A DNA stretch of 64,000 nucleotides. It comes from Phycisphaerae bacterium. GTDB lineage: Bacteria; Planctomycetota; Phycisphaerae; UBA1845; UTPLA1. The notes under the pieces were generated by a model. It was not told the origin of the DNA, ran no database searches, and was given only the letters and a program-made list of their open reading frames with translations. Numbering within the stretch: position 1 is the stretch's first letter; each line of letters opens with the position of its first letter. The translations under genes and the position numbers were made by a program. The DNA is taken from positions 1 through 64,000 of the forward strand of contig JAKLKO010000008.1 in the NCBI GenBank assembly GCA_023150615.1. Reading direction: 5' to 3'. Below are positions 1 to 26,161 of the stretch, one piece after another.

Positions 1-112
1 GCGGGATTGAGCGGCGATCGTATCCGCGCGACGACGGTACTGCCTGAATGAATCGGCAAACGGCGAACGATGCGGCCGTGATTCGCGCCCCGCCGCGGTT
101 CGACTTTAAGGC

Positions 113-141
113 TTGACGATATACCCGATTCGCGTTACAAT
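113..141 (+). promoter_or_regulatory. Sigma-70-type promoter of the HTH gene
   Basis: TTGACG (113-118) and TACAAT (136-141) are separated by 17 bases, and each hexamer matches the consensus at five of six positions. The ATG of the HTH gene lies at 150. The usual start of transcription, about seven bases after the -10 box, would fall at about 148, so the transcript should be leaderless or nearly so. No Shine-Dalgarno sequence could fit. Confidence 0.7.
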
Positions 142-149
142 CCGGCGTT

Positions 150-353
150 ATGGGAAACATCGAAAAAGCGCTGCGGAACGCGATGAAACGCTGCGGCTTG
201 TCGGTCTATGCAATCGCAAAAGGCTCCGGCGTGCCGTTGACGTGCGTCCAGCAATTCGCCGCGGGCCGCGGGCTGCGGCTCGCAACCGCGGATCGGCTGG
301 CGGATTACTTCGGTCTGGAACTTCGTCCGAAGCGCGGCCGACAAGCGCGATGA
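150..353 (+). CDS. Small helix-turn-helix (XRE-like) DNA-binding protein
   Basis: A 67-residue protein whose middle part (about residues 17-55, from LSVYAIAKGSGVP to LATADRLADYFGLEL) reads as a Cro/CI-type helix-turn-helix: an A-x-x-S/G-G-V turn, followed by helices ending in the usual LADYFGL signature. The basic tail RPKRGRQAR may add DNA contacts. It lies 39 bases upstream of a tyrosine recombinase on the same strand, so it probably regulates the element or acts as its excisionase; this is inference from position. Its start is fixed by the strong promoter immediately upstream, which leaves almost no leader. Not recognised as a specific named regulator. Confidence 0.75.
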   Translation: MGNIEKALRNAMKRCGLSVYAIAKGSGVPLTCVQQFAAGRGLRLATADRLADYFGLELRPKRGRQAR

Positions 354-392
354 TTCCCGCCGCGTGCCGCGGCGTCAAAAAGGCGGTGGCCA

Positions 393-2207
393 ATGGGCAG
401 AATTTTTCGCGAATCGTACACGACCAAGCTTCCGGCTGGAGCGGAAATCGTGGTGACGAAATCCGGCGAACGCTTCGCGCGCTGGACCGGCCGCGGCGGC
501 CGAAAGCGAACCGGCAAGTTGACCGACAAGGGGCGCGTGCTTGTCGAAGCACGGACGTTCACGGCCAAGTACCGCGACGGGACCGGGCGCGTGCTCAAGA
601 CGGCGACCGGTTGCCGAAGCGCCGATGCGGCGTTGATCGTGCTCGCCGAGCTTGAGAAACGCGCCGAGCGCGTGCGGTGCGGCGCGCTGTCCGTGGGCGA
701 CGACGCCGTGGCCGATCATCGGAATACGCCGGTGAACGAGCACGTCGCGGCGTACGTCGAACACCTCGCGGCTCGTCGAGGCCGAGGCGGGAAGCGCACG
801 AGCGCAGCGCATATCCGCAACACGCGATTCCGACTGACGCGGCTCTTTTCAGATTGCGGGTTTGCGGCGCTACGCGACCTGAATCGGCCGGCCGTGGAAA
901 AATGGGCCGACAAGCGCGAAGCCGACGGCGTGCCGGGTAACAGCGTGAACGGCCACTTATCGGTCGTGTGTGCGTTCGGCAATTGGTGCGTGGACACGAA
1001 GCGGCTCACCGTCAATCCCTTCGCTCGACCGCCGAAGCGCGACGGCAAGGCGACGCAACGCCGCCCGCGGCGGGCGATGACCGAAACCGAGCTGCGCCGC
1101 CTGCTTCACGTTGCGCGGCTCCGCCCGCTGGCCGAATTCGGACGGACACCCGTACGCCGGAGCGACGCCGCGGAGCGGGCCGACCCGCGGAGCCGCCGGA
1201 CGTGGACTCTCGCACCGCTGGACTTTGAAACGATCGACGCCGCGGCCGAACGGGGTCGGTCCGTTCTGGCGCCGCGGCCGGACTACGCCGCCAAGCTGGA
1301 CCGCCGCGGACGGGAACGCGCATTGATCTACAAGGCGCTGGTTCTGACCGGGCTTCGGCGCGGCGAGCTTGCGTCGCTCACGATCGGGCAAGTCGACCTC
1401 GACGGGCACTTGGCCTATGCCGTGCTGGCCGCGGTCGATGCGAAGAGCGGGCGCGGGGCGGAGATTCCGATAAGGGCCGACCTGGCAGACGAACTACGCG
1501 GCTGGCTGGCCGATCGGCTGGCCGAAGCGCAGGCGGCGGCGCGGGCAAAGGGCTTGCCGATTCCCGTCCGGCTGCCGGCCGACGCAAAGCTATTCAACGT
1601 CCCGCCGGGGTTGGTGCGGGCGTTCGACCGCGACCTGCGGGCGGCGGGCATTCCGAAGCGTGATGACCGCGGGCGTGTGCTCGACGTTCACGCCTTGCGG
1701 CACACGTTCGGGACGCACTTGAGCAAGGGGGGCGTTGCGCCGCGCACCGCTCAAGCCGCGATGCGGCATAGCACGCTTGACCTGACGATGAACACGTACA
1801 CCGATCCGCGATTGCTGGACGTGCACGGGGCACTCGACGCGCTGCCACGTCTCCCGCCGGTCGATCGGCCCGACGCCGAACGCGGCAAAGCAACGGGTAC
1901 ACACGGTGGGGAATTTCTTGTATCGAATCTTGTACCGACACGCGACAAAACGTGTCCGCGCCCGTCCGATCCTGTCACAATGGCCGATGACGACGCTTCG
2001 GACGAAACGGCTGCAAGTGCCAGCGCTGACGCGGGTAGCGTTTCGCTGTCGCACTATGTCACAACGCGCCCGGGGGGATTCGAACCTCCGACCTGCGGTT
2101 TAGGAAACCGCTGCTCTGTCCTGCTGAGCTACGGGCGCAGCGACGAACATTCTAACCGCCCGGAGTTCTGCGCGTACGTCCAGGATCGTGCATCCACAAC
2201 GCTCTGA
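393..2207 (+). CDS. Tyrosine recombinase / phage-type integrase, reading through the attachment tRNA
   Basis: A 604-residue site-specific recombinase. The catalytic set is visible: Arg322 in TGLRRGE, Lys in the VDAKSGRG hairpin, His433/Arg436 in HALRH, His459 in MRHST and the nucleophile Tyr469 in NTYTD. An N-terminal SAM-like core-binding domain lies before it (about residues 110-210). About 35 residues after the tyrosine the conserved fold is over, yet the frame stays open for another 100 residues and crosses a complete tRNA-Arg gene on the opposite strand (residues about 558-582). The C-terminus after integration is therefore encoded by host DNA. The recombinase should integrate a mobile element lying to the left of the window into the 3' end of that tRNA. 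The ATG at 393 is the first good start after the HTH gene. Confidence 0.88.
   Translation: MGRIFRESYTTKLPAGAEIVVTKSGERFARWTGRGGRKRTGKLTDKGRVLVEARTFTAKYRDGTGRVLKTATGCRSADAALIVLAELEKRAERVRCGALSVGDDAVADHRNTPVNEHVAAYVEHLAARRGRGGKRTSAAHIRNTRFRLTRLFSDCGFAALRDLNRPAVEKWADKREADGVPGNSVNGHLSVVCAFGNWCVDTKRLTVNPFARPPKRDGKATQRRPRRAMTETELRRLLHVARLRPLAEFGRTPVRRSDAAERADPRSRRTWTLAPLDFETIDAAAERGRSVLAPRPDYAAKLDRRGRERALIYKALVLTGLRRGELASLTIGQVDLDGHLAYAVLAAVDAKSGRGAEIPIRADLADELRGWLADRLAEAQAAARAKGLPIPVRLPADAKLFNVPPGLVRAFDRDLRAAGIPKRDDRGRVLDVHALRHTFGTHLSKGGVAPRTAQAAMRHSTLDLTMNTYTDPRLLDVHGALDALPRLPPVDRPDAERGKATGTHGGEFLVSNLVPTRDKTCPRPSDPVTMADDDASDETAASASADAGSVSLSHYVTTRPGGFEPPTCGLGNRCSVLLSYGRSDEHSNRPEFCAYVQDRASTTL
2065..2138 (-). 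tRNA. tRNA-Arg (anticodon CCT), probable attachment site
   Basis: Read on the minus strand this is a 74-base cloverleaf: acceptor GCGCCCG pairing with CGGGCGC, D-arm GCTC/GAGC, anticodon stem GCGGT/ACCGC around the loop TTCCTAA (anticodon CCT), and a T-loop TTCGAAT. CCA is not encoded. The T-stem GGAGG/CCCCC holds one A.C mismatch at its middle pair (2087 with 2075). The 3' end faces the integrase gene, the standard arrangement for integration into a tRNA 3' end. The mismatch could be a scar of integration. Confidence 0.93.
2149..2154 (-). promoter_or_regulatory. Possible -10 box for tRNA-Arg
   Basis: TAGAAT on the minus strand ends ten bases before the tRNA 5' end, the right place for a -10 element. 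No convincing -35 box is seen 16-18 bases upstream. Weak support from sequence alone. Confidence 0.35.
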
Positions 2208-9189: not shown

Positions 9190-10542
9190 TCACAATCCCG
9201 GAATCGGGGCACCGACCGTGGCCGTGCGATCCGCTCGACGGACCTGTCGCGACCCGAGCCATAACCCGAGGACCGCCCAGACGGCCATGAGCGGCAAGGC
9301 AGCGATCGCGGCGGCCCGCCCTCCGTGCGTCAACTGGGTCAGCCCCTGGTAGGCCCAGGCGCCGAGCGCGTCGCCGCCGCGATAGACGAACGTGTCGATC
9401 AGGCTCTTGGCCTTGTACTTCTCATCGCGCGTCACGACGGTGAAGAGCGTCTCGCGCGCAGGACGGGCCACGGCAAAGTCCGTTGCGCGGCGCAAGACCT
9501 GGAACCAGAACAGCAGCGCGAGCGTCGGCCACGCGGCGAGGCCGACGAATCCGAAGGCGGTGAGCGCGGGCAGGACGACGAGCGATCGACCGATGCCGAG
9601 CCGCGTGATGATCCGGCCGCTGAGCGTCGATTGGCTGGCGAGGGCGAAGGCGTTGACGAGCATGTCGATCCGCGCGAAGTACGCGGTTCGCGCGGCCTCG
9701 TCGATGCTGCTGTGCTTCACGACGCCGGCCTGTTGGAAGTAGACGAAGGTCGAGCCGACGGTGTAGCAGATCATGCTCACGCAGATCGCGAGGAGGTAGG
9801 GCGAGGCGACCGTGTCGCGGATGCCGGCCAGCGTTCCGGCAAGGGTGCTGACGGGTCTGTCGCCGCGAGGCGGGGCGTCCGACGGTGGATCGACACGCGA
9901 ACCGGCCATCGGCTGCGCCGTCGCGGTCGCGTCGATCGATGCGAGGCGGACCAATCGGCGCACGGCGAGGATCGCCACTTCGAACAGGCCCACCGCCAGC
10001 AGCAGGAGGTTCTCTGTCCCCAGCCGGGCAGCCAGCGTCGACGTGAGCAGCGAGCCGAAGATCGCACCGAGCGTTCCGCCCGCGCCGATGAACGCGAAGA
10101 GTCGACGACCCTGCTCGGCCGAGTAGATGTCGGCCATGAATCCCCAGAAGAGGCTGACGGCGAAGAGATTGAAGACGCTGACCCAGATGAAGAACGCGGC
10201 GGCGACGCGCGGCAACCCGTCTTGCAAGAGCTGCGTCGCGAGGACGAAGAAGACGATCAGCGAGAGCTGGCAGAAGCGATAGACGAACGGGATGAAGCGG
10301 CGGCGGCTGTAGTGCGTGACCAGCAGCGAAAAGAGCGGATTGGCGGCGATCGTGAAGACCAGGGTGCCGGTGTACATCCAGGGCAGATTCTCGACGCGGG
10401 CGACGCCGAGCGTCTCGCGCGCCGGGCGCAGCACGTAGAGCGCTGCCAGCACGGAGAAGAAATAGACACAGGACCAACTGACGGCGGCAAGCTCGTCCGG
10501 TCGGGCGCGCGACAGACGTGCGAGCGACGCGCGAAGCGACAC
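9190..10542 (-). CDS. ATP/ADP-antiporter-like (NTP/NTP exchanger) MFS membrane protein
   Basis: A 450-residue protein with about twelve hydrophobic segments. Motifs such as VLRPARETLGV near the N-terminus, HYSRRRFIPFVYRFCQ, and the repeated form ARPARETLFTVVTRDEKYKAK in the second half match the AAA/Npt1-Npt2-like branch of MFS carriers related to bacterial ATP:ADP antiporters. Many free-living bacteria carry distant members whose substrate is not established, so nucleotide exchange should not be assumed. Start is a GTG one base after the TAG of the epimerase gene, so the two are probably translationally coupled. Confidence 0.8.
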   Translation of the reverse strand: MSLRASLARLSRARPDELAAVSWSCVYFFSVLAALYVLRPARETLGVARVENLPWMYTGTLVFTIAANPLFSLLVTHYSRRRFIPFVYRFCQLSLIVFFVLATQLLQDGLPRVAAAFFIWVSVFNLFAVSLFWGFMADIYSAEQGRRLFAFIGAGGTLGAIFGSLLTSTLAARLGTENLLLLAVGLFEVAILAVRRLVRLASIDATATAQPMAGSRVDPPSDAPPRGDRPVSTLAGTLAGIRDTVASPYLLAICVSMICYTVGSTFVYFQQAGVVKHSSIDEAARTAYFARIDMLVNAFALASQSTLSGRIITRLGIGRSLVVLPALTAFGFVGLAAWPTLALLFWFQVLRRATDFAVARPARETLFTVVTRDEKYKAKSLIDTFVYRGGDALGAWAYQGLTQLTHGGRAAAIAALPLMAVWAVLGLWLGSRQVRRADRTATVGAPIPGL

Positions 10543-26066: not shown

Positions 26067-26161
26067 GGGAGCGTCCGGATACCTGGTGGGTCCCGCGGCC
26101 TTCAAAGCCGTTGAGGGGTTGCGACGCAACTCCTGGTGGGTTCGATTCCCATCCGCTCCCG
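26067..26161 (+). tRNA. selC: tRNA-Sec (anticodon TCA)
   Basis: A 95-base tRNA. The anticodon arm GCGGC-CTTCAAA-GCCGT carries TCA. The long variable arm pairs GTTGC with GCAAC. The T-arm GTGGG-TTCGATT-CCCAT fits the 8+5 class of selenocysteine tRNA. Acceptor GGGAGCG pairs with CGCTCCC, discriminator G, no encoded CCA; the eighth acceptor pair is T.C. This reads UGA as selenocysteine, so the organism should also have SelA, SelB and SelD, none of which is in the window. A TAGAAT at 26033-26038 could be the -10 box. Confidence 0.95.

Follow-up and report, generated by a model that had tools for sequence, protein, structure and literature searches.

An attachment site within the integrase gene of planctomycete mobile elements and the predicted exchange of the enzyme's C-terminus upon integration

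Precedents for attachment sites inside genes

The closest precedents for the locus described here are the suicidal integrases of archaea and the integration-dependent repressors of mycobacteriophages. Suicidal integrases are, according to a review of the subject, exclusively archaeal, and the split of their genes separates off the catalytic domain (PMC8371274). As in the planctomycete integrase gene considered here, in the archaeal families typified by SSV1, pTN3 and pT26-2 attP lies within the integrase gene and is translated, insertion into a tRNA gene splits the integrase gene, and the peptide encoded by the att site varies with the tRNA that is targeted (PMC8371274). Two features of suicidal integrases, attP inside the gene and the split of that gene, are thus found in the planctomycete form. 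The position of the split differs: in archaea, the N-terminal part is separated from the catalytic domain, leaving inactive pseudogenes, whereas the planctomycete gene keeps the catalytic domain whole in one ORF and only a C-terminal module is lost. The planctomycete form further differs from its archaeal counterparts in being bacterial and in having a core flanked by arm-like repeats.

In mycobacteriophages, attP is located in the repressor gene and integration removes a degradation tag from the repressor; an attP the size of that of lambda, it has been pointed out, would heavily constrain the coding sequence (PMC9262239). The integration-dependent immunity of phages of clusters G, N and P, such as BPs, shares with the planctomycete elements an attP located in a coding gene, as well as insertion into a tRNA gene that removes the C-terminus of the protein and alters its behaviour (in the planctomycete case, presumably) (PMC9262239). 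However, in the mycobacteriophages it is the repressor gene that is cut, an ssrA-like tag that is removed, and attP lacks arm sites. In the planctomycete elements, by contrast, the integrase gene harbours attP, integration takes away a folded helical hairpin and repeats are present in both arms of attP. The coding constraint imposed by the planctomycete attP appears to be absorbed by a disordered linker.

Integrases of the lambda and Tn1549 types resemble the planctomycete enzymes in their fold, the catalytic Tyr, the beta-rich N-terminal domain (in a structural model) and the repeats on both sides of the core. In lambda and most of its relatives, however, the integrase gene ends before attP, whereas the planctomycete gene contains it. 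We found no description of this system in the open-licence literature. If our reading is correct, the placement of attP in the integrase gene would extend from archaea to bacteria, in a form in which the catalytic domain is spared and a conserved module is swapped.

An integrase frame running through its target tRNA gene

The window analysed here covers 64 kb from the start of contig C69, one of the 70 contigs of a 4.1-Mb planctomycete genome (G000). Close to its start lies an ORF for a tyrosine integrase (393..2207, + strand, ATG start), which in the integrated state is read as a protein of 604 aa. Residues 310-472 match PF00589 (Phage_integrase; E 4.8e-15), and this match, together with the catalytic Tyr at residue 469 (1797..1799, + strand), where the catalytic domain ends, identifies the product as a tyrosine recombinase. 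The ORF runs on past Tyr469 for 135 codons, wholly crosses a tRNA-Arg(CCT) gene that is antisense to it (2064-2139, - strand, detected by ARAGORN; the attachment gene, reconstituted by the element) and reaches its stop codon, at 2205-2207, in host DNA; the ORF, Pfam and ARAGORN data thus agree with what had been described in the sequence-only reading of this locus. The integrase gene is adjoined by a small helix-turn-helix gene (150..353, + strand; HTH_3-like, below the Pfam cut-off), possibly encoding a regulator or an excision factor, and a similar gene is found upstream of a paralogous integrase on contig C26.

A search of the same genome revealed an exact 47-bp copy of positions 2065-2111 at the start of contig C15 (G000:C15:412-458, - strand). 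The sequence beyond this copy is host DNA, and when that flank is joined to the window from position 2112 onward, one intact tRNA-Arg gene is obtained. Hence, the tRNA gene is the site in which the element is inserted, and the 47-bp att core (2065..2111), translated in the ORF as ...RPGGFEPPTCGLGNR, is the 3' part of the tRNA. The integrase-side end of the element spans 1..2064, with the contig beginning at window position 1, and the other end is G000:C15:1-411, which bears the C-terminus of the module (module match at C15:205-309, - strand).

The excised circle of this element was inferred from its two ends, on C15 and C69. When the element side up to 2111 is joined to the 411 bp of C15, the integrase frame stays open, such that residues 1-573 are common to both forms and are followed by 31 host-encoded residues in the integrated copy (CSVLLSYGRSDEHSNRPEFCAYVQDRASTTL and a stop; 2112..2207, + strand), in place of the element's own C-terminal module, and by 69 residues in the predicted circle, ending with ...LTLIGRLPLSDAERAEAVRRLLAEA in a helical module. 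The two main predictions of the sequence-only reading thus held: the boundary of the element lies in the tRNA, as attested by the C15 copy of the core and the restored tRNA of the empty site, and the integrated and excised forms would encode different last residues and stops. It is plausible, as also suggested there, that such a switch of the C-terminus feeds back on recombination. What escaped that reading is that the tail of the excised form, judging by comparison with other elements, is not arbitrary: it is a conserved module, which the element retains at its opposite end. The module of the window element is of a divergent type (25-29 bits); in the paralogous C26 element, which has a different tRNA-like core, the joined end is in the same frame as well and reads ...LARLPLTDSERAEAVRRLLADQ.

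Read-through, frame concordance and unsplit genes across the phylum

Tails derived from tRNA genes, which the sequence-only reading mentioned for other planctomycete integrases, proved to be real and common when the C-termini of relatives were compared: across the phylum, the related genes cross many kinds of tRNA genes, mostly in the antisense orientation (in one set, 52, versus 7 in the sense orientation). Such tails could be meaningless products of chance, given that GC-rich DNA is poor in stop codons and an ORF can overrun into a neighbouring tRNA; the integrated tails past the core are indeed mutually unrelated and often only 1-5 residues long. Yet, in 64 related loci a tRNA gene follows the catalytic domain within 450 bp, and at 58 of them the integrase frame continues without a stop into that gene, whereas 6.35 would be expected from dinucleotide shuffling; for the AT-rich subset, the corresponding figures are 12 of 13 observed and 0.27 expected. 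Combined with the concordance of frames and the natural unsplit genes described below, this shuffle test refutes the chance explanation, to which we assign virtually no weight. In several elements (L125, L145, L186 and L194), the tRNA gene is entered in the sense orientation and its 5' half is the core; in these cases, integration may place the tRNA under transcription from the side of the integrase.

In the first set of elements for which both att copies were available, most of the joined forms end in a common module, AWPxLPxxIRxAIxAxV. A profile built from 20 modules matches 105 of the 392 planctomycete genomes. Among the 89 distinct module copies examined, 84 have no catalytic domain in their ORF, and most of these come after a tRNA-like peptide in the same frame; the other 5 are fused to an integrase. 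For a test of frame, modules were taken that had been found by the profile and were not among its seeds, and the upstream sequence was sought as a repeat kilobases downstream. All 15 cases in which an integrase ORF enters the core copy (including L327, where the integrase was identified by Pfam, and L355, a partial integrase) showed the module's frame and neither of the other two. Five more elements, which occupy tRNA-Arg genes in genomes related to that of the window, likewise have the integrase frame equal to the module frame: frame 0 is used by the two G408 elements (38 and 61 kb) and the G425 element, as by the window element, and frame 2 by those in G414 and G409, each matching its own module. 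Overall, the frames agree in 20 of 20 split elements, where chance would give one-third for each and some of the elements are related (L319 and L324, from one genus, are not fully independent); the first joined set, which seeded the module model, is excluded from this count. The exceptions are loci where the integrase stops directly after the core (L094 and L154), where there is no module (L171) or no integrase ORF at the core (L321, L323 and L350), and copies with neither (G397 and G433). At short non-core repeats (L071, L308 and L310), which we read as arm sites, the frames are sometimes discordant.

In the integrated state, the module lies in an open frame of ~80-150 codons and could, in principle, be produced as a small protein of its own at the end of the element remote from the integrase, its fused frame being incidental. 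Against this speaks not only that the module is always in the frame of the integrase across the core, but also that unsplit genes encode the fusion, so that we regard a separate protein as highly improbable. Such unsplit genes, in which one ORF comprises the catalytic domain, the linker and the module, are present in three IMG/VR contigs (L203, L216 and L194) as well as in L176 and L305. A tRNA fragment of 39-48 nt is embedded in the linker of each of L203, L194 and L176, and the tRNA match of L216 is weak. The viral records with unsplit genes are linear fragments, one of which (L203) also encodes a terminase large subunit and a helicase. In L305 (G306:C270), the core of the unsplit gene, 64 nt long, is identical to a portion of an intact tRNA-Ser gene located 8 kb away (9522-9612), which suggests two elements inserted in tandem.

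Arms of attP, the helical module and its possible roles

Within each element, the segment that precedes the core and the one separating the core from the module have direct repeats in common, typically located ~145 bp ahead of the core and 55 bp past it. The longest common word averages 12.9 nt between an element's own arms versus 6.0 nt in mismatched pairs (p=1.5e-17), and the inverted control, at 6.1 nt, is at background. In the window, CTTGTATCGA at 1917 and CTTGTACCGA at 1929 form such a pair with a 12-bp period within the coding sequence (1917..1938, + strand), and both sites are found again on C15, at 55 and 67 bp past the copy of the core. We read these repeats, which lie on both sides of the core and match within the element as in lambda-type systems, as putative arm-type sites.

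The module itself is conserved at the protein level: in close pairs, its amino acids are kept and silent sites are much changed (e.g., dN 0.07/dS 0.92 and dN 0.11/dS 2.3). AlphaFold modelling of the unsplit L176 integrase yielded confident N-terminal (beta-rich), core and catalytic domains, in a fold that matches Tn1549 Int and lambda Int, followed by a disordered att-encoded linker (residues 396-529, pLDDT<50) and a confident two-helix hairpin corresponding to the module (residues 536-568). Pfam and PHROGs matches of the unsplit integrases stop short of the module, a PDB profile search produced nothing convincing (best E 0.043), and no matches were obtained when the joined tail was searched by tblastn against collections of plasmids and phages.

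Taken at the level of sequence, the split, the continuous frame, the conserved module, the repeats and the natural unsplit copies demonstrate that the integrase gene contains attP within it and that integration exchanges the encoded C-terminus, across the phylum; we infer, further, that the two forms are both translated and that the action of the enzyme is altered by the module. Under the mechanism that we propose, a lambda-type attP of ~270 bp, consisting of arm-like repeats, a tRNA-derived core and repeats again, would lie between the catalytic domain and the helical-hairpin module. In the free circle or phage genome, the unbroken gene would encode a full-length integrase, in which the catalytic domain is connected to the module by the long disordered att-encoded linker. 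Integration would cut the gene at the core, leaving the catalytic part intact but fused to antisense-tRNA and host codons up to a chance stop, with the module stranded, out of contact, at the other end of the element. We favour a role of the module as the integration-specific part of the enzyme, a tethered contact that would stabilize or direct the attP intasome; its loss would yield an excision-competent or quiescent enzyme, so that the product of recombination would itself record and enforce the direction. As a whole, this account, with attP in the gene, a module lost on integration and an integration-specific role of that module, strikes us as the best explanation and as probably correct.

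The long disordered linker would, however, also allow the module to reach the catalytic domain, and C-terminal segments are known to regulate lambda Int and XerC/D in trans. The tethered module might therefore restrain the full-length integrase, which integration would then set free. Considering that the free form has to be active for integration to occur and that the model, with linker pLDDT below 50, includes no confident docking of the module, such auto-inhibition appears distinctly unlikely. Alternatively, a host protease or chaperone might recognize the module, rendering the free-form integrase short-lived and the integrated form stable, or the reverse, in the manner of the ssrA-like tags of the mycobacteriophage integrase and repressor; indeed, phages of the BPs type lose a C-terminal tag on integration (PMC9262239). 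A Ser/Thr protein kinase encoded in the same genome (G000:C13:51064-51159, L335) carries the same helical module at its extreme C-terminus and is the only clear non-integrase carrier seen, which hints at a host partner and indicates that the job of the module may not be specific to recombination. Conversely, the residues after the hairpin vary freely among copies, with no shared terminal residues, unlike in an ssrA-like C-terminal tag, and the folded hairpin is the conserved part. A terminal tag of this kind is accordingly disfavoured, and a switch of stability in general seems to us rather unlikely.

Returning to the favoured integration-specific role of the module, we suggest tentatively, as a possibility that falls somewhat short of probable, that these enzymes are self-editing bacterial integrases, in which recombination at an attP within the enzyme's own gene toggles the enzyme between a full-length form for integration and a form with a swapped tail, each product setting the next direction, and that such integrases occur widely among the phages and small integrative elements of planctomycetes, with many tRNA targets. 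The tail swap as such would probably constitute a built-in molecular memory of the free versus inserted state for a large group of mobile elements and phages in planctomycetes, and would offer a model for how an integrase gene could sense that state. It would also explain the frequent tRNA-derived tails of planctomycete integrases: the C-termini annotated from integrated copies would be host artefacts, the true C-terminus being kilobases away. In practical terms, the module and the core repeats mark the ends of the elements precisely.

Several minor features complete the picture of these loci. In the alignment, many of the integrases have a short motif, ATGTD, just after the catalytic domain. 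The window contains a tRNA-SeC (TCA) gene (26067-26161), and related elements often target tRNA-SeC. Finally, the same genome harbours a decayed copy (G000:C11:484536-484733, L046), an integrase remnant that precedes a tRNA-Gly(GCC) gene and has its stop ahead of the tRNA.
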